Virus record (IMG/VR): IMGVR_UViG_3300025131_000450
Location: 1 to 23,300 of that record
Origin: a virus
Strand: one strand, 5' to 3'
Length of the DNA: 23,300 bases
The notes below the pieces were generated by a model. That model was given only the letters and a program-made list of their open reading frames with translations, ran no database searches and was not told the origin of the DNA. The translations under genes and the position numbers were made by a program. This document shows positions 1 to 21,832 of the stretch, piece after piece. Within the stretch, counting starts at the first letter, position 1. Each line of letters begins with the position of its first letter.

Positions 1-320
1 ACTGGAACATAACGACCACTTATCTCATTCCAAGCATGGTCTTTCGTTGAAGATGATGATGTAGTTTCAATTCCTACTACGTGTTTATACCATTGTCGCA
101 TAACGAACTCTGGTGCCTTGATAATCAGCATAACGTGTTGGTGTCTGAATGGACTAAAATGTTTATTTTTGATTAAGAACTTGGATAGTTTCCTATCTTT
201 CTCTGTAAATTCATCACTACGACCACCAAATGAAACTCTGGCCGCATTTACAGGTGTTAGATCATCTCCGAGACTATCAACGACTTCAATATAACCTTTA
301 TCTAATACATTGACTTTCAT
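1..320 (-). CDS. thyX: Flavin-dependent thymidylate synthase ThyX, N-terminal part (runs off the left edge)
   Basis: The first 106 codons from ATG at 320 are present; the 3' end lies outside the window. The translation has the ThyX order of motifs: NAARVSFG near residue 27, KHFSPFRH near residue 55 (family pattern H-x-S-P-F-x-H), FVMRQWYKH near residue 75 and WNEISGRYVP near residue 99. ThyX makes dTMP from dUMP with FAD, NADPH and methylene-tetrahydrofolate, in the cytoplasm, supplying phage DNA synthesis. The usual RHRxxSxNExSxRY signature is split: the R-H element is KH, and about 16 residues separate it from W-N-E-x-S-G-R-Y. I recall such a form in other phage ThyX proteins, so it need not be inactive. 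A purine-rich AAAGG lies 12 nt before the ATG. This is a metabolic gene abutting a late structural block, with a 55-bp gap to the 213-aa gene. Confidence 0.87.
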   Translation of the reverse strand, partial: MKVNVLDKGYIEVVDSLGDDLTPVNAARVSFGGRSDEFTEKDRKLSKFLIKNKHFSPFRHQHVMLIIKAPEFVMRQWYKHVVGIETTSSSSTKDHAWNEISGRYVP

Positions 321-1415: not shown

Positions 1416-4400
1416 TTATTTGTTATCAATATGCATCCTTTGCTTCGGGGCACCCTGGATACGGCCTGGCTCTGGGGCTGTATATGCATTTGTCTTCACT
1501 GCTCCCCTTTTTAGAAATGATGATACGGGAAGTTCTGAAATATTAACTCTCATTTGACCTGTTAAAGTAGTTTTCCATCCTGTATCTGAAAGTTCTTGGT
1601 TTATATCAACTACTTGAAATATAACCTTCCCCTCATAATTAGATGGTAGCATACTAACGTTAAATGCATTTCCTGGTACAATTCCACCTATACCTTGAAT
1701 TTCGATTTCAAGTTCCATTTTCAACATAGGAGAAGATCCACCTATTCCAAAAATTGATGTTGCTCTATTAACTCCTATCAAATATTTCATTGCATCTACA
1801 TATGCATGTGGAAACGTATTTTTTAATTTTCCTGTTTTTGGATCATACATAGTTACTATCATATCTTCTTTTAATATCTGTTTTTGTTTTTGCTTCGAAT
1901 CTCCAGTTTTTGTCGGAACTAGTTTTTGAGATTCAGCTATATATGGAATATCCGATATTTTTATATCATCAGTTTTATACGCGGCCGTATATCCTTGATT
2001 ATAATTAACTAACCTATTATTATACTGTCCAATATCAACAAACAAGTTGTCTGATAGTTTTTTATTATATCTTAACTCATGACTATTATTTGTCACTAAT
2101 TGTAAATTTGTAACTAATGCTTCTCGTACAAATGTATTACTGTCTATTGGAAGATCTATTGTAGCTTGGTTCCCCGTGACACCTTTTGCACCAGCAACAA
2201 GACTTACATCAAATAGAAATCCATTACCTACCCCAAACTTTTCCCATCTACCATCTGAGTTTACTTTCAAATTATATGGAAATTGTGTACCAAATTTACC
2301 AAGTTTTCCGTTTTTCTTTTCCCATGCTCCAATGATATTCTTTTGTGTAGGATCTATAGTTGATTGAAGTGCAGATGAAGCTAAGAAATCAGCTGGATCT
2401 CCTCCCCCCTCTGGAGCATTAGATCCAGGAGATGCTACTCCACCATACATTGCTGTAACTGCTGCTCCCTCTGGAAGTTTAGCTGATAAAGTCTGACTTT
2501 TAACCATACTATTTCTTTCCCATGATGGAAAAATATAAACTTTACCATTCGGTAATATTTTATCATCCTTAAATTCTTTTGCACCATATTCCGTCACAAA
2601 ACCAGTATCCTCATTTACTGTACCCCATACTGAAGGTTCTGTCAATAAATCTTTCACTTTTTCTTCTGTATAATTCCTATCAACAACCTTTACTCTTTCT
2701 CCATCTGTTGATAAATGTAAATCCCATATTCCAGTTGTACTATTTAATTTATTAAATAAAGATTGACAAGCTGCTTCTACTGAATCTACTCCTTCGAAAC
2801 ATTCTTTAAAAATATCAAGATGTATCAATAAATGTCTCATATACCCAGCTTCATCTATTGGTTCATACTTCTCTTCGAGTAAATGCGTATGATATTCACC
2901 AGGGTTAGCATTTAATGAAGGATGTTTATTACCCTTCCACTTATAAGCTCTAAACGGTGGAATATTAAATATAGTTCCAAACTTCCCATCTGTTAGAGAA
3001 GCAGTATATCCCCATGGGCTATCCTCGAACCATTCTCCCTGCCAATCACCTAAATGTAAAGGATATTGTCCAGGAATAATACATATTTCTGGATCAACAG
3101 TTATAAGTGATTTATGGTTAGATATTTTCGTTGGTTCATATCCTAACTCTTTTTCCCCTTTATAAATTAAATCAACACTTCTAAATTCTTGTACTAACTT
3201 ATTATTACTATCAACCTTTCCGAGAAATCTAGTTAATATATTATCTTCAATCCAACCCCAAGACAACCAAGGTCCAACTTTATCATCTATATTCCAAGCT
3301 CCGAGATCCCAAGCAACAGCTTGAAAAAAACCATCTGTAACATTACCCTTTTTAAATTTTTCATGACTGCCTTGAACTCTTTCCTTATTAAATTGCCATT
3401 TCAAATAATTTTCTATTGTATCGTCGCTATGCACCCCATACTGCGTTCCTACCCCCCCGGTGATGGCGTATTCAGGACTTTTCTGGCCAGTTTTGACTGG
3501 GTCAGATTTAGTTCCTCTTGTATATTTATTTCCCAATTTTTGTGATCCAAATAGATACCCCTTAAGTGCATCCGAACTAATTGCCATAGTTTTACCAATA
3601 TCATTAATAAATGTATCCATTTGTTCCATAAATTTATCAAACGTAACTTGTGAATAAGTTCCTTCTTCTTCATCATCTTCTTTACCCATTCCAGTACTAT
3701 TTGTTGGTGAACCCATGACTTGATTTATAATATTAACTCCTCGTGATTTTAACTTAGTTGTACAATCAAATCCACCATCAGACCTTAAACTCCATTCAAA
3801 ATTTGAAATAACACCGACCATAGCATCATAATTTCCACCATTTTCAAAAACTTTATCTTGTATCTCATCATGTAAACTTACCTTAGTAGTTCTACCTACC
3901 GATGCTTCAAGTATTTTACTATAATCCAACGGAATTGGCTTATCAGAACCACCAAGTCCTCCCCAACCCCATTCTAAAGTAACAAGTTTACCCATTTCTA
4001 AAAAGTGTGGTGTTAAACGCTCTAAATCTCTAAATGACCAACAAACCCACTCTATTGTAGCTTCTTTAGATGCTTTCATTTCACCAACATAATCAACAGA
4101 AATATTTTTTATACCTGGTATTGGCATACCCCCATGTGATGTATCAGGACCTTGTACGGACTCTTTATCAGTTATAGGAGCCATTAGATCTTCAGATTTC
4201 TGATTTCTCCCATAAACACCCTTAAAACCAGTATACATCTTGTTTTGATTTTCCCAAGTTGTAGAATCCTTTAACACTTCTTCTATATTCCAATCTTCCC
4301 TATACATTAATCCTGATTGTAATAGAACTGTATTATATCCACCAAGTGGATTATCTATCATCATAGGAGTCTCGTCTCCTGCATCAATTTGAAACTTATT

Positions 4401-4724
4401 CCATTCTTTAATTTTCTCAGGATCTCCTCCTTCAAAATAACGATTAGATTGTCCGAATTCAGGAAGTGTCATCCTTTTCTGTTGAAGCTTTTGTTTCCAA
4501 GCATTACTTACTAATTTTCTAGTATCAACAGGAGAAAAAACTCTAATCCAAGGTGATTTTGTAAAAGATTCTGCTAACAAATCTCTATTTTCTTTAGTAC
4601 TATTAAGTGATTCTCCTTGACGAATTATTCGTGCCGCAGAACCCGATGCAGGACTTCTTTCCAATATAAACTCCCTTTTATGGAGTTCTTTTCTTATTTT
4701 TGGATGTATTTCTGATAAAAACAT
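1416..4724 (-). CDS. Baseplate hub-like structural protein, second paralogue (1102 aa)
   Basis: This is the downstream member of a tandem pair with the 1116-aa gene. Both open MFLSEIHP and share blocks in the same order: VTLEWGWGGLGG with PIPLD near residue 250, YDAMVGVISNFEWSLRSDGG near 295, GPWLSWGWIEDN and FLGKVD near 490, CIIPGQYPL near 550, VTAMYGG near 755 and IGGSSPMLKMELEIEIQGI near 1000. The end (VFQVVDINQELSDTGWKTTL) resembles the last domain of hub proteins of the T4 gp27/P2 gpD/Mu gp44 class, in which a tube-like barrel meets the tail tube. That link is by pattern and gene order, not proven. No signal peptide or lysozyme domain is seen. Residues ~330-440 differ strongly from the paralogue and include a run of seven G (3452-3458 on the plus strand). 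AAGGAAA before ATG 4724 overlaps the preceding stop region, so the pair is probably translationally coupled. Confidence 0.7.
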   Translation of the reverse strand: MFLSEIHPKIRKELHKREFILERSPASGSAARIIRQGESLNSTKENRDLLAESFTKSPWIRVFSPVDTRKLVSNAWKQKLQQKRMTLPEFGQSNRYFEGGDPEKIKEWNKFQIDAGDETPMMIDNPLGGYNTVLLQSGLMYREDWNIEEVLKDSTTWENQNKMYTGFKGVYGRNQKSEDLMAPITDKESVQGPDTSHGGMPIPGIKNISVDYVGEMKASKEATIEWVCWSFRDLERLTPHFLEMGKLVTLEWGWGGLGGSDKPIPLDYSKILEASVGRTTKVSLHDEIQDKVFENGGNYDAMVGVISNFEWSLRSDGGFDCTTKLKSRGVNIINQVMGSPTNSTGMGKEDDEEEGTYSQVTFDKFMEQMDTFINDIGKTMAISSDALKGYLFGSQKLGNKYTRGTKSDPVKTGQKSPEYAITGGVGTQYGVHSDDTIENYLKWQFNKERVQGSHEKFKKGNVTDGFFQAVAWDLGAWNIDDKVGPWLSWGWIEDNILTRFLGKVDSNNKLVQEFRSVDLIYKGEKELGYEPTKISNHKSLITVDPEICIIPGQYPLHLGDWQGEWFEDSPWGYTASLTDGKFGTIFNIPPFRAYKWKGNKHPSLNANPGEYHTHLLEEKYEPIDEAGYMRHLLIHLDIFKECFEGVDSVEAACQSLFNKLNSTTGIWDLHLSTDGERVKVVDRNYTEEKVKDLLTEPSVWGTVNEDTGFVTEYGAKEFKDDKILPNGKVYIFPSWERNSMVKSQTLSAKLPEGAAVTAMYGGVASPGSNAPEGGGDPADFLASSALQSTIDPTQKNIIGAWEKKNGKLGKFGTQFPYNLKVNSDGRWEKFGVGNGFLFDVSLVAGAKGVTGNQATIDLPIDSNTFVREALVTNLQLVTNNSHELRYNKKLSDNLFVDIGQYNNRLVNYNQGYTAAYKTDDIKISDIPYIAESQKLVPTKTGDSKQKQKQILKEDMIVTMYDPKTGKLKNTFPHAYVDAMKYLIGVNRATSIFGIGGSSPMLKMELEIEIQGIGGIVPGNAFNVSMLPSNYEGKVIFQVVDINQELSDTGWKTTLTGQMRVNISELPVSSFLKRGAVKTNAYTAPEPGRIQGAPKQRMHIDNK
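3755..3851 (-). repeat. 97-bp perfect repeat, copy in the second hub gene
   Basis: These 97 bp match 7157-7253 base for base, including every synonymous position of about 32 codons. They encode the YDAMVGVISNFEWSLRSDGG region. Sequence on both sides differs, so this is an identity island inside diverged paralogues. Confidence 0.95.
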
Positions 4725-4733
4725 ATATTTTCC

Positions 4734-7700
4734 TTAACCTTCCAGCACTTGAGTGCCCGTGTCATATGTCCCCGTTCTAACTGGCCTTCCAATGCTTCCA
4801 TCAGGATTCCTGGCTCTGTTAGCATTCTTTATAGACTGTTTTTCCTGATCACCACCTGAAAGTGGATGATGTGATATATCTTCAAAATCTTTTATCTCTG
4901 CAGCTGCCCATATTTTATCAATCTTAGGAACAGGAGTTTTTGACAACTCAATTTCATGTGAAATATTAACTCTCATCTGTCCCTTTAATGTAGTATTCCA
5001 ACCTGTATCTGAAATTTCATGATTTATTTCAGTCGCTTGAAATAAAACACCATCTAAATATTGTCTTGGTAAATTACTAATACTAAATACATTCCCTGGC
5101 GTAATACCCCCTATACCTTGAAGTTCAATATCTAATTCCATATCTAATAAAGGAGATGATCCACCTATTGCAAAAACTGAAGTTGACTTACTAATTCCTA
5201 TAATATATTTCATTGTATCTAAATATTTATTTGGTGATTTATTTTTTAACTTTCCCTCATAATTATATATTACATCATAAGGGTCTTTATTAGACATATC
5301 TTTCTTTTGTGGGTCTGGAATAAGCTCCTTTTTTTCAGCTTCCTGATAAGCTTCTAAACTTTCTTCATATGGTTTTATATCACTTAAAGGCCCTTCTCCT
5401 TTACCTTTAGATCTTGCAATTATCTCTTTTAAATTCCAAGTTAACTCTGTTCGTAAAAATGATTCTGTATTTATAACTTCATTAACAAAAGCTTTTGGGT
5501 CTTCATTATCTTTCTGAGATAGATCAAAGTCAAATCCATAGTTCATCCCAAAGTGTTTCCATTTATCCTTATCTACACTCAAATTATATGGAAATTGTGT
5601 ACCAAATTTACCAGATTTTCCACCTTCATTTTTCCATACTGAAGTAATGCCATTTTGAAGTCTATCTGGAGTTGAAAATATAGTAGTTGCTGCTAAAAAA
5701 TCACTTGGATTTCCACCACCCATCGGAGCTTCAGCTCCAGGAACTGCAAGTCCTCCATACATCGCTGTAACTCCTGTCGAATCTGGAAATTTAGCAGTTA
5801 AATTACAACTTTTAGTCATACTATCTCTATTCCATGTTGGAAAAACAAAAAGTTTTCCAGTTACCTTACTATTATCATTTAAAGGGTTTTTACATTTGCT
5901 GATACATTTTTCTTCATTTAATAATTCCCACATTTTATTATCTGTATAATTCCTATCAACAACTTTTACTCCATCACCACCCTCTGTAGATAATTGTAAA
6001 TCCCATATACCACTTGTACTATTTAACTTATTAAATAAAGCCATACATCCAGCTTCTACTGAATCTGCTCCTCCAAATGCCTCCTCAAAAGCATCTATAT
6101 GTATCAACAAATTCCTCATATAACCAGCTTCATGTATTGGATCGCATTCCTTTGCAACAATATGATACTGCGTTACTGTTTCTGTTTGTGATGGGTGGGT
6201 AGTTCCACTCCATTGATAAGCTCTAAATGGAGCGGGAGTTATTGGAGTAATACCTTCATCCGTTAATTTTGATGTAAATACCATAGCAGCATTAAGTGCT
6301 GTTTGTCCCCGTCCAATAAGCTTTGAGAAAAATCCTCTATTCACAGTAGATTCACTCAGGGGATACTGGCCAGGAATAATACATATTTTTGGATCAGCAG
6401 TTATAAGTTGTTTATGATTAGATATTTTTGTCGGCTCCCATCCTAATAAATCTTCTCCCTTACGAATTGCATCAACACTTCTAAATTCTTGTATAAGAGT
6501 ACCATGTATATCTACCTTTCCAAGAAATCTACTTAATACATTATCTTCAATCCAACCCCAAGATATCCAAGGTCCTACTTCTACATTATTTAAAAAACCC
6601 CAACTAGCTGGATATATCACACCTTCACTTATTTTCTTCCCTTCCATTTCCCCTTTTATAACATTCTCCCATGCTGTTTCGGTATAATCCTCATTTTCAA
6701 TGTATTCTTTTATTTTTTTACTCGTAATTTCCATCTGTTCTCCAACGGCCATAACTTGTTTTTTCATTTGTCTTATAAAGTTACTAAAAGTAAGACCAGG
6801 AGGAACAGTTATTCCTTGAGACCTTACAAACTCAAAGTGTTCCCCAGCAAAACCCCCAGTCAAGTCATCAACGATGCTGCCAATATAAGGAGTGTTATCA
6901 TCTTCTTCATATTTAATAAGACCTTCATCAAAAACATTAGCCGTTACTCCAAACATTGATAAAAAATCCTCTCCAACAGCTCCAGGAATACTTGTTAGTG
7001 TACCCTCGTGATCCCACTCCCATCCCGCCTCTTTAGATAATTTTACATCTATTCCAAGCTCTTGTTCTATCCTATCATCAAGCGTTAATGGGGGGGATCC
7101 CACAGCTGAACCTCCAATTACAGCATTAAGAACACCTACCCCACGAGATACTAATGTAGTTGTACAATCAAATCCACCATCAGACCTTAAACTCCATTCA
7201 AAATTTGAAATAACACCGACCATAGCATCATAATTTCCACCATTTTCAAAAACAGTTTCTTGAATATCATCATGTAAATTAGGTATATCTTTTCTCGTTG
7301 TAGCACTATTTAATATTCTGTTAAAATCAAGTGGAATTGGACTATTAGTACCACCAAGACCGCCCCAACCCCATTCTAAAGTAACAAGTTTACCCATTTC
7401 TAAAAAGTGTGGTGTTAAGAGTTCTAAATCCTCAGGACTCCAGCATACCCAATCTATCGTAGCTTCTTTAATTGCTTTTACTCCACCCTTATAGGCAATA
7501 GTAACATTTTTAACACCTGGTATTGGTAAAGCTCCTCCTACATATCTTTGTTTCAATTCACTTTTAGATGCTAATGGATCACCAGTAGGTCTACCTCTAC
7601 CATAAACTTCTTTAAAACCAACAAACATTTTATTTTCATTTGGATCTTTAGCCCCAAACTTTTCTGGATCATTAATATTTTTCCTACCCATTAATCCTGA

Positions 7701-8084
7701 TTGTAATAAAACTGTATCATATCCACCAAGTGGATTATCTATATGCATATCTGCTTCAAAATCTTTCCATTTTTCAATTTTCTCAAGATCTCCATTAGGT
7801 TCAAAATAATGATTAGATTGTCCAAAAAAAGGATTTTTTTTTCTAATATTGTTAAGCTTATTTCTCCATGCATCATCTATAAGTTTAGTACTATCAATAG
7901 GAGAAAAAACTCTAACCCAAGGTGACTTTGCAAAAGATTCTGCTAACAGATCTCTATTTTCGTTTTTAGGATCAAGTGTTGTTGTTTGACGAATTTTTTC
8001 AGTTTCGGCAGGCATTCTTTTTAATATAAATTCTCTTCTATGAAGTTCTTTTCTTACCCTTGGATGTATCTCAGATAAAAACAT
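4734..8084 (-). CDS. Baseplate hub-like structural protein, first paralogue (1116 aa)
   Basis: Upstream member of the tandem pair, with the same block order as the 1102-aa gene: VTLEWGWGGLGG near residue 235, YDAMVGVISNFEWSL near 280, GPWISWGWIEDN near 510, FRSVDAIRKGE near 540, CIIPGQYPL near 570, VTAMYGG near 770, IGGSSPLLDMELDIELQGI near 970 and the terminal EINHEISDTGWNTTLKG near 1020. The last block looks like the closing domain of contractile-tail hub proteins. It directly follows a LysM-fold gene, as P2 gene D follows gene X, which supports a hub role. ATG 8084 comes one base after the LysM gene's stop and has no clear Shine-Dalgarno, so translation probably depends on coupling. The tail beyond residue ~1045 (rich in K, D, R, G) is not shared with the paralogue. 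A seven-C run (7090-7096) lies in the variable middle part. Confidence 0.7.
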   Translation of the reverse strand: MFLSEIHPRVRKELHRREFILKRMPAETEKIRQTTTLDPKNENRDLLAESFAKSPWVRVFSPIDSTKLIDDAWRNKLNNIRKKNPFFGQSNHYFEPNGDLEKIEKWKDFEADMHIDNPLGGYDTVLLQSGLMGRKNINDPEKFGAKDPNENKMFVGFKEVYGRGRPTGDPLASKSELKQRYVGGALPIPGVKNVTIAYKGGVKAIKEATIDWVCWSPEDLELLTPHFLEMGKLVTLEWGWGGLGGTNSPIPLDFNRILNSATTRKDIPNLHDDIQETVFENGGNYDAMVGVISNFEWSLRSDGGFDCTTTLVSRGVGVLNAVIGGSAVGSPPLTLDDRIEQELGIDVKLSKEAGWEWDHEGTLTSIPGAVGEDFLSMFGVTANVFDEGLIKYEEDDNTPYIGSIVDDLTGGFAGEHFEFVRSQGITVPPGLTFSNFIRQMKKQVMAVGEQMEITSKKIKEYIENEDYTETAWENVIKGEMEGKKISEGVIYPASWGFLNNVEVGPWISWGWIEDNVLSRFLGKVDIHGTLIQEFRSVDAIRKGEDLLGWEPTKISNHKQLITADPKICIIPGQYPLSESTVNRGFFSKLIGRGQTALNAAMVFTSKLTDEGITPITPAPFRAYQWSGTTHPSQTETVTQYHIVAKECDPIHEAGYMRNLLIHIDAFEEAFGGADSVEAGCMALFNKLNSTSGIWDLQLSTEGGDGVKVVDRNYTDNKMWELLNEEKCISKCKNPLNDNSKVTGKLFVFPTWNRDSMTKSCNLTAKFPDSTGVTAMYGGLAVPGAEAPMGGGNPSDFLAATTIFSTPDRLQNGITSVWKNEGGKSGKFGTQFPYNLSVDKDKWKHFGMNYGFDFDLSQKDNEDPKAFVNEVINTESFLRTELTWNLKEIIARSKGKGEGPLSDIKPYEESLEAYQEAEKKELIPDPQKKDMSNKDPYDVIYNYEGKLKNKSPNKYLDTMKYIIGISKSTSVFAIGGSSPLLDMELDIELQGIGGITPGNVFSISNLPRQYLDGVLFQATEINHEISDTGWNTTLKGQMRVNISHEIELSKTPVPKIDKIWAAAEIKDFEDISHHPLSGGDQEKQSIKNANRARNPDGSIGRPVRTGTYDTGTQVLEG
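7157..7253 (-). repeat. 97-bp perfect repeat, copy in the first hub gene
   Basis: Partner of 3755-3851, in the same orientation and about 3.4 kb away. A second identical island of roughly 56 bp lies at about 7363-7418 and 3961-4016, over the codons for the W-G-W-G block and its downstream helix. Recombination between the copies could delete or convert the genes. Confidence 0.95.
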
Positions 8085-16241: not shown

Positions 16242-19200
16242 TTAACGATCATTTAAGTCCCCAAGATGATCTCTGGATTTCTTTATATCAGCCACTATTG
16301 GTTTTAACATTTTATGTAAGTCATCAATTTTTGTTCCTAAAGTGCCAATACCAGTATTGTCATCTACTTCTACATTAATTGTTTGAGTTGAAATTGTTGT
16401 TGCATCTATTCTCTCTAAACCTAACGATAATCCTTCTGTCCCTTCAACTGGACCTAAAGATGGAGCAACTGTAAAATTCGAAGCTCCACTCAACATTTGT
16501 AATATTCCTGCAGTTGGATTTATTTCTGCCATTTTTTCGAGCTCATCTGTAAAATCACTAAAACTACTTGTAATTGAAGCCATATCTTTAATTTGTGAAA
16601 AATCTGTTATATCCGCTATAATCTCTCCAAAACCAACTCCAACAGATGCAAGTCCTTCTCCAAGAATTTTAAAAGATTTTCCTATGTGTTCAATTGCATA
16701 ACCAAGTGCTACTAATCCAAGTATACCTGCTCCAAATATCAAAGCTCCCACTCCACCACCTGCAAACAAGGCATATCCGAATGCAAACATCGCTGCTCCT
16801 AAAACAATCAAAGATTCAGCAAAATTAGTAATAGACTTTGGATCTACACCAGTCAATAATGCAAATGCCTTAGCCGCTGGATACAATGCAAACCCAAGAA
16901 TAGCTACAGCTGCAGCTCCCATTACCATTTCTTTAGAACCTTTAGATAAAAGGTAAGCTACCCCTGCTAAAGCAATAAGAGTTCCAATACCAACTGCAAC
17001 TTGTGGCCATTCAACACCTTCAAACTCTTTAAATGCTTTTGCAGCGACAAACATAGCTGCTGATAAAAGTAATATTGCAGCTGCACCCTTCAACATATTT
17101 CCAGCATTCATACCACCTACACCACTTCTACTCAGTTGATTTCCGCCAGGCTTGACATTCGGTTTTTTCGATGGTGATGTAGTTGATGTAGTTGGTGTAG
17201 TTGGTGATTTTCCACCACGACTAAAAAACTTCTTAATTTTACCAAGTAAACCACTCTGTTTCATATGCTCAGCTGAAATTTGTCTATTTAAAGTTAACCT
17301 AGCAATAAGATTCTTCAAAATATTACCTCCAAAGGTAAGTATTTGTCCTAAAAGTTTAATTGGGCCTACACGTAAAGTTCCAGCAAATAATAATGACCAT
17401 GATACCCAAGCACCTAAAAGTCCAACAACCCACTTAGCCGATGGACCAATAAAATCTTCCAATAACGATGCTACATATCCAAATCCAGTAACTATAGCTC
17501 CAAGTATTGTGACAACTGCAATTAAAGGTGAAGCAATACCAACAATAAAAGGCCATAAATCAGTTACTACATCAACAATTGATGCCCATGCCTTCTTTAC
17601 TTTTTTAACTAATTTCTCATACTCTTGAGCACTCAGTCCTAACAATTCAGCTCTCTTATTAAGTTTATCTTGATTTGCTATCATTTTAGCAAGTTCACTA
17701 GTACTCAACCCAAAAGCATCTGCTACAGCTTTCCTTTGAATTACATTATAACTATTCCATTCAGCTTCATTTCCAACCTGTCGTAATATTTCAGCTTGTA
17801 ACCCCTCTATATTCCCCTCTAATGCTAAACGTCTTGCTAAATCAGTATTAATATTTTTTCCTGTTAACATTTGAGCTTCAAATTGTTTTTCAATAGAAGT
17901 TTCCCACTCTAATAAATCTTCTGCAGCTTTAGTTACTACACCTAAATTAACACCGAGTTGTCTCGCTGATATAGCTGCATCCATTAAATTTTTACCACCT
18001 GCTTGTGCAAAAGATGCGAATGTATCAGTATCCTCTGCTAAATCTGCCATAATATCAGCTGGAGCAACACCAGCTGCTTGTGCTAAAGCTCCAACGGATT
18101 CCATTTGACTCATAGCTGCATCAAAACTATGACTACCAACCGCTTTCATTTGTACAGCTAAAGCTGCTGCGTCTGCTGGAAGAACTCCAAGATTTGAACT
18201 TAACTTTGCCAAACTTCCAATATTTTCCTCGGTAGCCATTCCAACTGAACCCCATTCTTGTATTAATGCAATTGCTCCGTCTTTAACATCTTCAGCATCT
18301 ACACCAAGTAAAGCATATTGCATACCAACCTTTTTTATTGCACCATGAAGTTTCATAGATTCTAAATAAGTAAGTCCAGTTTCCTTATGAATATCTTGCA
18401 TTCCTTTAAGAAAATTAAATATTAATTTTGTTGCAAAACCTATTGCAACAACAATTCCTAAAACAGCTGGGCCCCAACCCATAATAGTATTCATAACTGA
18501 TTTTGCTATTTTATTAAGTTTACCCATCACACCACCAACCATCTCACCAGCCGAACCCATAGCACCCATTTCTTCTGCTGCTTCTTTTGGAGTTTCAGTC
18601 ACAAATGGTTTATCTGTTTTTGGATCAATAAGTTTCTTTTTTGGCTCCACAGCTTCCTTTGTCTTATCACCTTCACCAAATGCTGTTTTAAAACCTTCTG
18701 TAAATTCCTTAGAAAGTTCCTTACCTATATGACTAAAATCAAATACCTTACTTAATATCGTTCCAATAATAGGAATTCTAGATATAAAATCATCAACACT
18801 ATCAAACAGATCTGTTATAGTACCAGCAACAGCCATTACTTGCTCATGTTGTCGTGACCACTCATCATTTATAGATTGCAACCCTTGTAAATAAGCTACT
18901 GTAGCGTGATCCTGTTCTCTACGAGCGAATGCAATTTCCTTTGATAAATCTACAGATCTAAATTCTTCTGTGGCTATATTTTCTCTATTATTTAAAATTT
19001 CCTCGGTTTTATCAACCATCGAAGTATACATTCTAACACCGAGTTTACCAGATCTAGTACTTTTTTCAGCATTTTCTTTTAATTTCGTACCAATAGATTC
19101 TAATCCAGCAGCTACAATATTATTATTTCTACCTGCATCTGAAAAATGATGGGCAAACTCTCCTGCTGTTTTGGTAAGTTCTCCGACAAGATCTAAAGTA

Positions 19201-19529
19201 CCTTGAATTTCTACATTAAGTTTTTCAAACTCATCTACGAACTGTAAAGCCTCCTTTAAATCCATCCCACCTTGAACTAACTTTATAACCCGTTTACGAG
19301 TTTCCTCCAATTCTAAATCTAAATCTTCGTATTTTTCAAGAAGCTCGGTAAAAATTTTAAGATTTTCTTTATTTAATTTAACAGTATCAGCAGTTCCTTT
19401 ATTTATATCTTTAATTAGCTTCTTTGCTTGATCATATTGATCCCTAGCTTCTTCAGCATCTTCTTTAGAGAATTGCATCTTAAAAATTAAAGTATTATCA
19501 ATACCACCCCATTTTACTTTTGTATTCAT
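16242..19529 (-). CDS. Tail tape measure protein (1095 aa)
   Basis: It lies after the tube and chaperone genes and has tape measure composition. Residues ~15-115 are charged heptad-like helix (coiled coil). Residues ~340-375 are hydrophobic (MGWGPAVLGIVVAIGFA). Residues ~380-640 are a long alanine-rich helical region with GSHSFDAAMSQMESVGALAQ. Residues ~645-720 carry further membrane-like helices. A low-complexity linker of T, P and S (SPTTPTTSTTSPSKKP) lies near 770-790. Residues ~805-985 form an Ala/Gly-rich hydrophobic block (AILLLSAAMFVAAKAF). Tape measures span the tube lumen, set tail length and are ejected ahead of the DNA. At 1.5 angstrom per residue, a fully helical chain would span at most about 160 nm; this is only a rough guide. 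The ATG 19529 is preceded by AAGGAAA 11 nt upstream. A 156-bp AT-rich gap lies upstream and 39 bp separate it from the giant gene. Confidence 0.9.
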   Translation of the reverse strand: MNTKVKWGGIDNTLIFKMQFSKEDAEEARDQYDQAKKLIKDINKGTADTVKLNKENLKIFTELLEKYEDLDLELEETRKRVIKLVQGGMDLKEALQFVDEFEKLNVEIQGTLDLVGELTKTAGEFAHHFSDAGRNNNIVAAGLESIGTKLKENAEKSTRSGKLGVRMYTSMVDKTEEILNNRENIATEEFRSVDLSKEIAFARREQDHATVAYLQGLQSINDEWSRQHEQVMAVAGTITDLFDSVDDFISRIPIIGTILSKVFDFSHIGKELSKEFTEGFKTAFGEGDKTKEAVEPKKKLIDPKTDKPFVTETPKEAAEEMGAMGSAGEMVGGVMGKLNKIAKSVMNTIMGWGPAVLGIVVAIGFATKLIFNFLKGMQDIHKETGLTYLESMKLHGAIKKVGMQYALLGVDAEDVKDGAIALIQEWGSVGMATEENIGSLAKLSSNLGVLPADAAALAVQMKAVGSHSFDAAMSQMESVGALAQAAGVAPADIMADLAEDTDTFASFAQAGGKNLMDAAISARQLGVNLGVVTKAAEDLLEWETSIEKQFEAQMLTGKNINTDLARRLALEGNIEGLQAEILRQVGNEAEWNSYNVIQRKAVADAFGLSTSELAKMIANQDKLNKRAELLGLSAQEYEKLVKKVKKAWASIVDVVTDLWPFIVGIASPLIAVVTILGAIVTGFGYVASLLEDFIGPSAKWVVGLLGAWVSWSLLFAGTLRVGPIKLLGQILTFGGNILKNLIARLTLNRQISAEHMKQSGLLGKIKKFFSRGGKSPTTPTTSTTSPSKKPNVKPGGNQLSRSGVGGMNAGNMLKGAAAILLLSAAMFVAAKAFKEFEGVEWPQVAVGIGTLIALAGVAYLLSKGSKEMVMGAAAVAILGFALYPAAKAFALLTGVDPKSITNFAESLIVLGAAMFAFGYALFAGGGVGALIFGAGILGLVALGYAIEHIGKSFKILGEGLASVGVGFGEIIADITDFSQIKDMASITSSFSDFTDELEKMAEINPTAGILQMLSGASNFTVAPSLGPVEGTEGLSLGLERIDATTISTQTINVEVDDNTGIGTLGTKIDDLHKMLKPIVADIKKSRDHLGDLNDR

Positions 19530-19685: not shown

Positions 19686-19937
19686 TTACATCTTTAAAAA
19701 TGCATTAAAAAAATCATTTGCTTTTTTATACTCTGGATCTTCTTTTCTTTTCTTTTCTATATGGTTATAGATATCGTCTGCAACATTGTCTGCTTGTTTA
19801 AGAATTTTAACCATTTCTGGATCGTTTCTCAATTTTTGGGCAAGTTTTTTTCCTTTTTTTCGAGCAATTGCTTTAAAAATATTAAATATAAATTCATTTA
19901 ACATTTTTTCTTCTCGTACAATGTATTTTACAGACAT
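19686..19937 (-). CDS. Small helical protein before the tape measure (83 aa)
   Basis: ATG 19937 follows an AAGGAG Shine-Dalgarno at about 8 nt, and the frame ends at TAA 19686. The sequence is almost entirely predicted helix, basic in the first half (FKAIARKKGKKLAQKLRNDP) and mixed-charge later (NHIEKKRKEDPEYKKANDFF). No transmembrane segment is convincing, although residues 14-24 (NEFIFNIFKAI) are hydrophobic. I do not recognise a family. Its position between the chaperone frames and the tape measure suggests a tape-measure accessory or assembly factor; this is positional inference only. It is separated from the tape measure by 156 bp, more than other gaps in the operon. Confidence 0.75.
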   Translation of the reverse strand: MSVKYIVREEKMLNEFIFNIFKAIARKKGKKLAQKLRNDPEMVKILKQADNVADDIYNHIEKKRKEDPEYKKANDFFNAFLKM

Positions 19938-20024: not shown

Positions 20025-20261
20025 CTATCTTGGAGTTGGTGGTTTATGAACTTTTCCACCAGATTTGCTTCTTGCTTTTTTGTATTGTTCTTCTTCTTGT
20101 TTATAGAATTCGGACGCCTTTTGAAGGTAATATCGGCGCAGATAGACAGGCATGTTATATACCTCTGTGAAATTAAATCCTCCTTTCCCGTGGAAGCACA
20201 GGGAGAAGATTTGGTCGTGGATTGCGGGTTTATCTTCGACCCGCAGGCCAAAAAAACTCAA
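20025..20261 (-). CDS. Frameshifted extension of the tail assembly chaperone
   Basis: This frame overlaps the end of the 260-aa gene and is +1 relative to it. Its only early start is a TTG at 20261 with no Shine-Dalgarno, so it is probably translated by frameshifting at 20250-20256. That would give a ~328-aa fusion: about 254 residues of the upstream protein plus about 74 here, starting GLRVEDKPAIHDQIF. The conserved-looking core is CFHGKGGFNFTEVYNMPVYL, then RRYYLQKASEFY and an acidic/basic helix, ending in a basic, proline-rich tail (KSGGKVHKPPTPR). The arrangement matches lambda G/G-T tail assembly chaperones, which precede the tape measure and whose extension binds it. An internal ATG near 20153, with AGAGG 8 nt upstream, could give a separate 42-aa product. 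Codons here are G+C-richer (CTG, CGC, GTC) than in neighbouring genes. Confidence 0.75.
   Translation of the reverse strand: MSFFGLRVEDKPAIHDQIFSLCFHGKGGFNFTEVYNMPVYLRRYYLQKASEFYKQEEEQYKKARSKSGGKVHKPPTPR
20223..20256 (-). promoter_or_regulatory. Programmed ribosomal frameshift site: U7 run plus stem-loop
   Basis: On the minus strand, the run of seven T (20256-20250) is read as TTT TTT TGG in the upstream frame. It is followed by a 5-nt spacer region (GGCC, then CT overlapping the stem start by one base) and a perfect 7-bp stem TGCGGGT (20245-20239) / ACCCGCA (20229-20223), with a 9-nt loop containing the zero-frame TAA (20232-20230). A +1 slip re-pairs tRNA-Phe perfectly on UUU and continues with GGC; a -2 slip enters the same frame with one extra Phe. 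The GC-rich stem stands out in AT-rich DNA. Confidence 0.75.
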
Positions 20262-21012
20262 GGTCTAATGGGATTGCCATTTCAGTTTCGTCGCCAGTAG
20301 TATCGCTGACAAAAGTGAAATTCATATCCACATCAGGGGTAATCTCGATGAGATGTTCTCTAAATGCAAGTGAATCACGAGAAAGTAACATAGTATCAAC
20401 AAACTCATTAACTGTTGTTCTACTATTATCACCATTAACTGATACAAAACATTTTTTTAATCGAGTAGTTATTTCAGATGTAGTACCTAAACCTTTAGAA
20501 AACTTTTTTAAAGATTTTAATTCTACTTCAATTTCTTTTTCTTCTCTATGAGTTAATAATTTGAAAGTAATAGGAACTTTAGAAGCTGGTAAAGTATATT
20601 CAAACTCATTTTTACCACCTTTAAATAAAGAATAATCTACTTCTTTATCTCCTATTTTTGTTAAATCAAAAGTTTCTTCTTGTTTCTCATCACTTGATGG
20701 ATCTGAAATTTGAACGGTATACTCTTTACCATATCCAAGTATTCTTGTTGCAATCATAATTGCATTTTTATCTCCAAGTAAAACATCGTTTAACTTTACT
20801 TTTGAATCTACAATAACAGCTTCTAATAGTCTATCCAAAACAATTCCTTTTTGAATAAGATTTCGAGATGTAAGTATATCTTCTTCTCTTGCTGTCATAT
20901 ATTTCAACTCAATTTTACCAGATGAAAGAGGATTTTCCTTTGGATAGAGTTTACCTTTAGATGGCAAACTAACTATCTCAGTTGGAAACTGAGCTTTCTG
21001 TTTTTCAGGCAT
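20230..21012 (-). CDS. T4 gp26-type (T4_baseplate family) protein, probable tail assembly chaperone, 260 aa
   Basis: The N-terminal half carries the family's marks in order: VSLPSKGKLYPKENPL near residues 14-30, IELKYMTAREEDILTSRNLI near 34-53, then VLDRLLEAVIVD and LLGDKNAIMIATRILGYGKEY near 77-98. This is the Pfam T4_baseplate pattern (T4 gp26 and relatives), a cytoplasmic assembly factor. The second half has a charged helix (FKLLTHREEKEIEVELKSL) and a C-terminal strand region. It precedes the tape measure, and its last codons overlap a second frame behind a slippery U7 run; this is the organisation of the lambda gpG class, so I favour a chaperone role over a baseplate part. The zero-frame product ends FFWPAGRR, six residues after the slip site. 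AAGGAG lies about 8 nt before ATG 21012. Confidence 0.82.
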   Translation of the reverse strand: MPEKQKAQFPTEIVSLPSKGKLYPKENPLSSGKIELKYMTAREEDILTSRNLIQKGIVLDRLLEAVIVDSKVKLNDVLLGDKNAIMIATRILGYGKEYTVQISDPSSDEKQEETFDLTKIGDKEVDYSLFKGGKNEFEYTLPASKVPITFKLLTHREEKEIEVELKSLKKFSKGLGTTSEITTRLKKCFVSVNGDNSRTTVNEFVDTMLLSRDSLAFREHLIEITPDVDMNFTFVSDTTGDETEMAIPLDLEFFWPAGRR

Positions 21013-21132: not shown

Positions 21133-21312
21133 TTATGCTTTTCCAACAGCGTCACGAACTCCGTACAAACCAAATGCTGCGAGTAATGTCCAAACAACTT
21201 CAGGTACTGCTTCTACAACACCTGCTGCTTGTAATACTCCAACAACTCCAGCAACTACTGAAGTCCATATTGTCTTTGATTTCCACCAAGCTTTATCTGC
21301 TATGACTGCCAT
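21133..21312 (-). CDS. Small hydrophobic membrane-type protein (59 aa)
   Basis: ATG 21312 follows AAGGAG at about 7 nt and the frame ends at TAA 21133. The protein has a short polar start (ADKAWWKSKTIW), a hydrophobic segment (TSVVAGVVGVLQAAGVV, residues ~17-33), a PE turn and a second hydrophobic segment (VVWTLLAAFGLYGV, ~39-52), then RDAVGKA. The WWKSKTIW opening, two short hydrophobic helices and a closing L-Y-G-x-R pattern recall small phage membrane proteins sometimes called holin-like. The segments are short for membrane crossing and no lysis gene is nearby, so the function is open. It lies between the tube and the chaperone genes, 28 bp after the tube stop. Confidence 0.8.
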   Translation of the reverse strand: MAVIADKAWWKSKTIWTSVVAGVVGVLQAAGVVEAVPEVVWTLLAAFGLYGVRDAVGKA

Positions 21313-21340: not shown

Positions 21341-21832
21341 TTAGAATTGTAGTATTGCGTAATCGTAACGAAGTGTTATTGCAATATCTACTGGATCGGT
21401 TCCTGAACCCCAATCTAAATCATTAAAGTTTGCTGACTGAATCCATGCTCCTTTAAGTGTCCATTCTTCAACTTTATCACCAACTGGACCTAACACATTA
21501 ATTGTAATATCTTTTTTATAAAAATCTGAATATCCATCTCTACCTGTTACTGATTCGTGTGATAGCCTAACCCATTCCATAACTGCTTGTGCTCCACTCG
21601 GAACAACTGGGTCGTATAGAGTAACTTCTAAAGTTTCCCAAGTTCCTTTACCTTTTACAAATCTTTTTACATTAATATGATTAAGTTCAATTTCTTCAAA
21701 TGTAATAGTTGGTCTACCTGTAGTTTTAATAAGATATGCAGGAATACCTTCAATGTACATGATGTACCGATTTTTCGTTTTCGGTTCAAACGGTGTGAAC
21801 ATAATTTCTGAAGGATCTAATAAGTCTGGCAT
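21341..21832 (-). CDS. 19: Tail tube protein (T4 gp19 type), 163 aa
   Basis: The length equals that of T4 gp19 (163 aa). The C-terminal third shows the gp19 pattern: EWTLKGAWIQ near residue 121, LDWGSG near 138 and DIAITLRYDYAI near 148-159, matching the G-x-W...L-D-W-D...V-T-L-x-x-D-Y of the family. Near residue 43 the ITFEEIELNHINVKRFVKG strand region precedes TWETLEVTLYDP, the conserved W-x-x-[LF]-x-V-x-[LV] strand of tube proteins. Six-fold rings of this protein stack to form the inner tube for DNA. The ATG at 21832 has GGAG about 8 nt upstream. It follows the sheath gene but is cut off from it by a terminator, so it probably has its own promoter in the 199-bp gap. Confidence 0.92.
   Translation of the reverse strand: MPDLLDPSEIMFTPFEPKTKNRYIMYIEGIPAYLIKTTGRPTITFEEIELNHINVKRFVKGKGTWETLEVTLYDPVVPSGAQAVMEWVRLSHESVTGRDGYSDFYKKDITINVLGPVGDKVEEWTLKGAWIQSANFNDLDWGSGTDPVDIAITLRYDYAILQF

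Follow-up and report, generated by a model that had tools for sequence, protein, structure and literature searches.

The end of the gp26-like gene in this stretch of DNA is overlapped by a second open frame, and the question is how that frame is translated: as a gene of its own, or joined to the gp26-like protein by a programmed shift of the ribosome, and if so in which direction. The window, i.e. the whole 23.3 kb virus record that was analyzed, is a piece of a T4-related myovirus with its genes on the minus strand. Their order on that strand is tail tube, a 59-aa protein, the gp26-like gene, the second frame, an 83-aa ORF, a tape measure-like gene and baseplate genes. The features that bear on the question are:

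21341-21832, minus strand: tail tube protein (T4 gp19-like), upstream of the gp26-like gene; PF06841 (1.1e-6), phrog_4542 (4.8e-28)
20230-21012, minus strand: gp26-like zero-frame product of 260 aa, the proposed major, short form (TAC-N); PF12322, phrog_150
20248-20256, minus strand: putative shift site TTT TTT TGG, kept in 57 clusters of relatives, with +1 re-pairing permitted by every variant
20230-20232, minus strand: zero-frame stop TAA
20025-20255, minus strand: +1-frame extension FFGLRVEDK...TPR followed by a stop, the proposed C-domain of the long form (TAC-NC); homologous in 58 clusters
20025-20261, minus strand: second frame including its TTG
20259-20261, minus strand: TTG, the sole start codon near the beginning of the second frame, not conserved in relatives
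20245-20239 and 20229-20223, minus strand: hairpin TGCGGGT / ACCCGCA, an optional stimulator present in the close clade only
16242-19529, minus strand: tape measure-like protein of 1095 aa, downstream; phrog_4372 tape measure (8e-4)

The tape measure gene occupies an equal place in the annotated phages immuto and SP-15, where the gene order equals that of the window and the chaperone position lies between the tube and tape measure genes. The 59-aa protein between the tail tube and gp26-like genes (21133-21312, minus strand) is hydrophobic, has a good Shine-Dalgarno sequence (AAGGAG) and is possibly a small membrane protein. The 83-aa ORF between the second frame and the tape measure gene (19686-19937, minus strand) has weak matches (E 0.02-0.03) to the PHROG tail assembly chaperones phrog_330 and phrog_393. 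Elsewhere in the window two adjacent minus-strand ORFs of 1102 and 1116 aa (1416-4724 and 4734-8084) are alike at their start (MFLSEIHPK/RxRKELHxREFIL), as if a tail or baseplate gene had been duplicated in tandem. A truncated ORF at 3-320 (minus strand) looks, by its motif, like a putative flavin-dependent thymidylate synthase (ThyX).

In the zero frame the gp26-like gene ends as GAG TTT TTT TGG CCT GCG GGT CGA AGA TAA. A preliminary description of this DNA had proposed a programmed +1 or -2 shift here, and most of the elements on which it relied are found as described. A run of seven U (U7) lies in the overlap at 20256-20250, a 7-bp stem holds the zero-frame stop in its 9-nt loop (CGAAGATAA), and the second frame continues for 74 codons past the run in a phase that is indeed +1 (= -2). 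The spacer between U7 and the stem is 4 nt (GGCC) instead of the 5 nt given earlier, and the fusion, put at about 328 or 329 aa, would have 328 aa for a +1 shift and 329 aa for a -2 shift. Taken alone, the fold of the hairpin is ordinary for the window (z -1.8).

Searching IMG/VR with the 260-aa protein yielded 80 relatives, and further scans enlarged the collection to 185 loci in 62 clusters. All members of the 80-relative set that have a complete junction (100 to 48% identity) retain TTT TTT TGG CCN together with a homologous +1 frame that stays open. The +1 relation is retained in 58 of the 62 clusters, the exceptions being L089, L105, L110 and L197. It also occurs in annotated phages of Flavobacterium (immuto), Microcystis (Mel-JY01), Listeria (LIS04), Bacillus (SP-15) and Streptococcus (GXN1) and in an uncultured 484-kb phage. 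The second frame is unannotated or shortened in the annotated genomes, and in Mel-JY01 it is annotated as a separate hypothetical ORF. Beyond the zero-frame stop, the position of which drifts in relatives, the +1 frame remains open for a mean of 76 codons (chance about 0.004 per cluster). The -1 frame soon meets a stop in most cases, and the second frame is in +1/-2 phase, which is not that of a canonical -1 site (X XXY YYZ). In comparisons of clusters with 70-99% protein identity, single-base differences in codons past the zero-frame stop comprise 990 synonymous against 302 nonsynonymous changes, and the differences by codon position (1:2:3) are 630:358:1452. Judged by this substitution pattern, the second frame is coding and under purifying selection; selection for protein coding is seen in the zero frame too.

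The codons at the site were tabulated for 57 clusters, each counted once, with shared ancestry overstating the significance of the values. The first codon is TTT in 52 clusters and TTC in 5; the second is TTT in 38, CTT in 17 and CTA in 2, and never TTC, TTA or TTG. Leucine in the same genes is encoded by TTA in 47% and by CTT in 21% of cases. If shared ancestry is ignored, the probability of finding no TTA or TTG among the 19 leucine codons at the site is about 4e-8, and that of finding 17 CTT is 2.6e-10. The third codon is TGG in 51 of the 57, although tryptophan is otherwise very rare in these genes, with 10 occurrences altogether, and the fourth is CCT in 52. Overlapping coding explains part of the conservation of CCT and TGG. 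In the window TGG amounts to 18 per 1000 codons and it is not rare in the phage overall. The sites found include TTT TTT TGG, TTT CTT TGG, TTC TTT TGG and TTC TTT CGT, and their core signal is a Phe or Leu codon able to re-pair one base forward, usually followed by TGG. A further bias lies directly ahead of the run, where the preceding codon ends in T in 2 clusters (22.7 expected) and in C or G in 48 (12 expected). Only one reading frame is used in that region, and the bias must therefore act at the level of the nucleic acid. T may be avoided there since it would create a -1 slippery run.

An independent gene with a weak start (TTG, ATG or GTG), reached by translational coupling and giving no fusion, could in principle account for the second frame. 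An ATG or TTG lies 5-11 nt ahead of the run in many clusters, cyanophage gp51 is annotated with its own ATG, and in L105 and L110 an ATG beside the upstream stop opens the domain in a different frame. Independent initiation may occur in the 18 of 57 clusters that have an upstream ATG in the +1 frame. However, the second frame overlaps or abuts the first and is conserved without a conserved start codon. Start codons vary in type and place among clusters, and in 10 clusters the stretch from the preceding +1-frame stop to codon 25 of the domain contains no ATG, GTG or TTG at which an intact second protein could start. In the window the only early start is, as was noted before, the TTG at 20261-20259, which has no Shine-Dalgarno sequence, whereas the neighbouring genes all have one (AAGGAG, AAAGGAG, AAGGA or TTGGAG). 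Separate initiation also leaves the codon bias at the site and the avoidance of T before the run unexplained, and we consider it quite improbable. Slippage of RNA polymerase on the T7 run, producing mRNAs with altered U counts from which the fusion is made by standard decoding, would agree with the U7 run that is intact in 30 of the 57 clusters. It was rejected as very improbable, because about half of the clusters have an interrupted run (TTTCTTTGG, TTCTTTTGG, TTCTTTCGT, TTTCTATTC) while the frame relation is unchanged. Finally, one-base runs are prone to error and the window is a metagenomic contig, so a homopolymer sequencing error, or else a pseudogene, might hide what is really one frame. 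To this we attach hardly any probability: one phase is found in 185 loci bar the four exceptional clusters, in independent assemblies; the isolates immuto, SP-15, LIS04, GXN1 and Mel-JY01 share it, including at sites without a 7-base run; and no +1 cluster contains an in-frame fusion.

Re-pairing of the P-site tRNA bears on the direction of the shift. The same programmed shift by -2 slippage, as in phage Mu, would give the junction EFFF-GLRVEDK and 329 aa. This mode is accepted for phage tail genes (PMC5009743), the second UUU of U7 re-pairs two bases back equally well, and CUU sites permit UUC with wobble; in LIS04 (TTT TTT AGT) a -2 shift fits the second codon as well as +1 or better. Across the collection, however, -2 re-pairing at every site, as in a Mu-type shift, is not found. 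It is mismatched in 7 of the 57 clusters (TTC TTT TGG four times, TTC TTT CGT, TTT CTA TGG and TTT CTA TTC). On TTC TTT TGG and on TTC TTT CGT of GXN1 the Phe-tRNA would meet UCU with a central mismatch, and the two CTA sites fail as well. A fully paired +1 option exists in all 57 clusters, at codon 2 or codon 1. These mismatches, set against +1 pairing throughout, favour +1 over -2, which is an unlikely alternative, and they narrow down the direction that the preliminary description had left open.

The frame relation, the selection, the missing starts and the conservation of the site codons thus strongly support the proposal that a programmed shift joins the gp26-like protein to the second frame, and it is very probable that ribosomes shift by +1 where the gp26-like gene ends. 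Both the occurrence of shifting and its direction are what we infer from comparing sequences. Most ribosomes would finish the gp26-like ORF at its own stop to give TAC-N of 260 aa. A minority would slip one base forward at UUU UUU UGG, with TTT (20253-20251) in the P site and TGG (20250-20248) in the A site. While the A site waits on UGG, the peptidyl-tRNA-Phe would move from UUU to the overlapping UUU, and T20250 would be skipped. In relatives the slip would take place at CUU_U or UUU_C, often with UGG in the A site. Reading on in the +1 frame would append a three-helix C-domain of the gp51 type, and the product would be TAC-NC of 328 aa with the junction EFF-GLRVEDK. On the model of lambda G/GT, the tape measure protein would be coated by a large number of short chaperones and a small number of long ones, which would also bring in the tail tube.

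Possible stimulators of the shift differ among the relatives. Of the three elements whose conservation among homologues had been put forward as a check, the frame relation is conserved (58 of 62 clusters), but several lineages interrupt U7, and only the close clade has the stem. With the run interrupted in about half of the clusters, U7 as a requirement was rejected. In the 18 distinct sequences of L001-L050 the five inner pairs of the stem are always formed, and two pairs show changes on both sides. No shared structure appeared in the folds of nine relatives, and remote relatives fold differently or not at all. The stem as core signal was rejected, its pairs being retained only in L001-L050; it may stimulate locally in this close clade. 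For the third codon before the run (9 nt), GGG is strongly preferred (22 of 38 Gly, against 8% in the background). GGG is also enriched 27 nt before the first Phe codon (15 of 22 Gly, against the same 8%). The GGG codons 9 and 27 nt upstream are possibly internal Shine-Dalgarno-like stimulators. A stimulator of the RF2 type was rejected, as the spacing is unlike that in RF2 and the window has no GGG there (GAC CTT GAG); GGG at the third codon would at most be a clade-specific stimulator.

The two domains were folded separately, with their frames unchanged, and both have relatives in the gp26/gp51 family. The N-domain matches PF12322 with 26.8 bits (gathering cut-off 24.5; 4.8e-6) and phrog_150 'baseplate hub' at 2.1e-7. 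Its AlphaFold model (pLDDT 91.8) gives a Foldseek match to the SP-15 baseplate hub at 3e-19 and to T4-like hub proteins. A fold search of the PDB with this domain gave no significant match, the HK97 tail assembly chaperone 2ob9 appearing at E 2 only. The C-domain from the +1 frame is modelled as three helices (pLDDT 84), and its fold search gave weak matches only, including the tape measure chaperones of Moogle and Mica. This domain had no direct match to PHROG or Pfam HMMs. A comparison by hhalign with a profile of gp51 C-termini, built from the C-domains of cyanophages, Atu_ph07, XacN1, L197 and T4, gave a match of moderate size with 90% probability and E 1.4e-6. By this profile match, the second frame encodes a homologue of the gp51 C-terminus. 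In T4, gp26 and gp51 are paralogues in one family, gp51 being extended at its C-terminus. The short and long products would correspond to gp26 and gp51, because the N-domain belongs to this family and the C-domain matches the gp51 C-terminus. The gene position and the homology of the C-domain also support extending the lambda G/GT logic to gp26-like proteins, as had been suggested. Vladimirov, Gautam and Davidson (2022) reportedly identified gp26 and gp51 as the tail assembly chaperones of T4-like phages. That the gp26 family would act on the tape measure and not in the baseplate hub is taken from the literature, and family and position suggest a tape measure chaperone function here. A T4-type tail assembly chaperone pair made from one gene would be the best explanation of the locus.

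Other phases occur in the same family. The downstream domain follows in -1 phase in Kyanoviridae (Bellamy, P-SSM2 and environmental relatives), Melnitz, Atu_ph07 and XacN1. The gp26/gp51 junctions of Kyanoviridae (L092, L094, L199-L278) have AGT/AAT TTT TTC, a U UUU UUC heptamer, mostly with a nearby ATG; gp51 may be made there by -1 shifting besides initiation at the annotated ATG. In L089 (LR756511.1, a 595-kb phage) the zero frame extends about 20 codons past the FF site, and a C-domain-like frame in -1 phase has an ATG that overlaps the stop (TAATG). T4 has two divergently oriented paralogous genes for gp26 and gp51. In L105 and L110 the +1 frame is closed, and an ATG at the zero-frame stop begins the C-domain in a different frame. 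The proteins, both at 3650-3760 (L105 on the 187.8-kb contig 3300001528), start as MENIDNLLREI... and MNIDRFLQEL.... A second frame with its own start had been named beforehand as evidence against a shift, and these two clusters do have one, but in a tree of 46 proteins, the deep branches of which are long, they fall inside a supported +1 clade. Since they are nested there and have lost the +1 frame, their separate start reads as a secondary change, apparently a loss of frameshifting. We lean towards the view that the direction of the shift has switched within one homologous gene at a homologous Phe-Phe site, being -1 (U UUU UUC) in cyanophages and relatives and +1 (C/G UUU UUU UGG) in a wide group of marine, freshwater, Flavobacterium and Gram-positive phages, with separate genes and no shift in T4 and the L105/L110 clade. 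What sets the direction would then be the base 5' of the run together with the codon that follows it.

Tail assembly chaperone frameshifts were reportedly described by Xu, Hendrix and Duda in 2004, and the title of Vladimirov 2022 is said to state that T4-like phages use another mechanism. Among tail chaperone frameshifts -1, -2 and +1 cases are known, and T4 has been named as the exception to their conservation (PMC5009743). One further paper attributes to Vladimirov 2022 a poly-T -1 signal in the chaperone genes of T4-like phages (PMC12846349), and another also cites that study (PMC10885494). Our search, which covered openly accessible papers, found no earlier description of +1 shifting in the gp26 family. 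A large group of relatives of this T4 protein family thus appears to use a frameshift, where T4 was thought to manage without, and in a direction that is uncommon in bacteria. It would supply the missing second chaperone product in many phages, including the cultured immuto, SP-15, LIS04, GXN1 and Mel-JY01. The -1, +1, two-gene and separate-start arrangements form a natural series for asking how the direction of a shift evolves and what sets it.

Shifts in the +1 direction occur in the cps and tsh genes of Listeria phage PSA and are likely in the tail chaperone gene of the haloarchaeal virus HSTV-2 (PMC5009743). Like the shift proposed here they concern phage structural or tail genes, but in PSA the capsid and tail shaft genes shift on CCC codons, unlike UUU UUU UGG. 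Closer parallels at the decoding site are found in unrelated genes. In influenza PA-X (UCC_UUU_CGU) a +1 shift at UUU_CGU was proven by mass spectrometry (PMC3498833), and CUU_UGA is the +1 shift site of RF2 (PMC10885494). The UUU_CGU of GXN1 equals the PA-X tetranucleotide with its A-site codon, and immuto has CUU_UGG. As in RF2 and PA-X, a P-site UUU or CUU would re-pair one base forward; a slow A-site codon follows in those genes, and TGG is the usual A-site codon here.

Within tail genes, lambda gpG/gpGT offers the same arrangement of short and long chaperones encoded in frames that overlap and lie between the tube and tape measure genes, with a C-domain that would be reached only via the shift. 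The differences are the lambda -1 heptamer and, here, the gp26/gp51 family (PF12322) with +1 at UUU UUU UGG. The cyanophage gp26-gp51 junction shares the protein pair, the FF position and a short gp51-type frame directly downstream, but it has the -1 phase, AGT TTT TTC and often a gp51 ATG, in contrast to +1 phase and C or G before the run. T4 gp26 and gp51 likewise share the N-domain of phrog_150/PF12322, and the C-domain is homologous to the gp51 C-terminus. In T4 the two forms come from two genes, whereas here one gene would give both by frameshifting.
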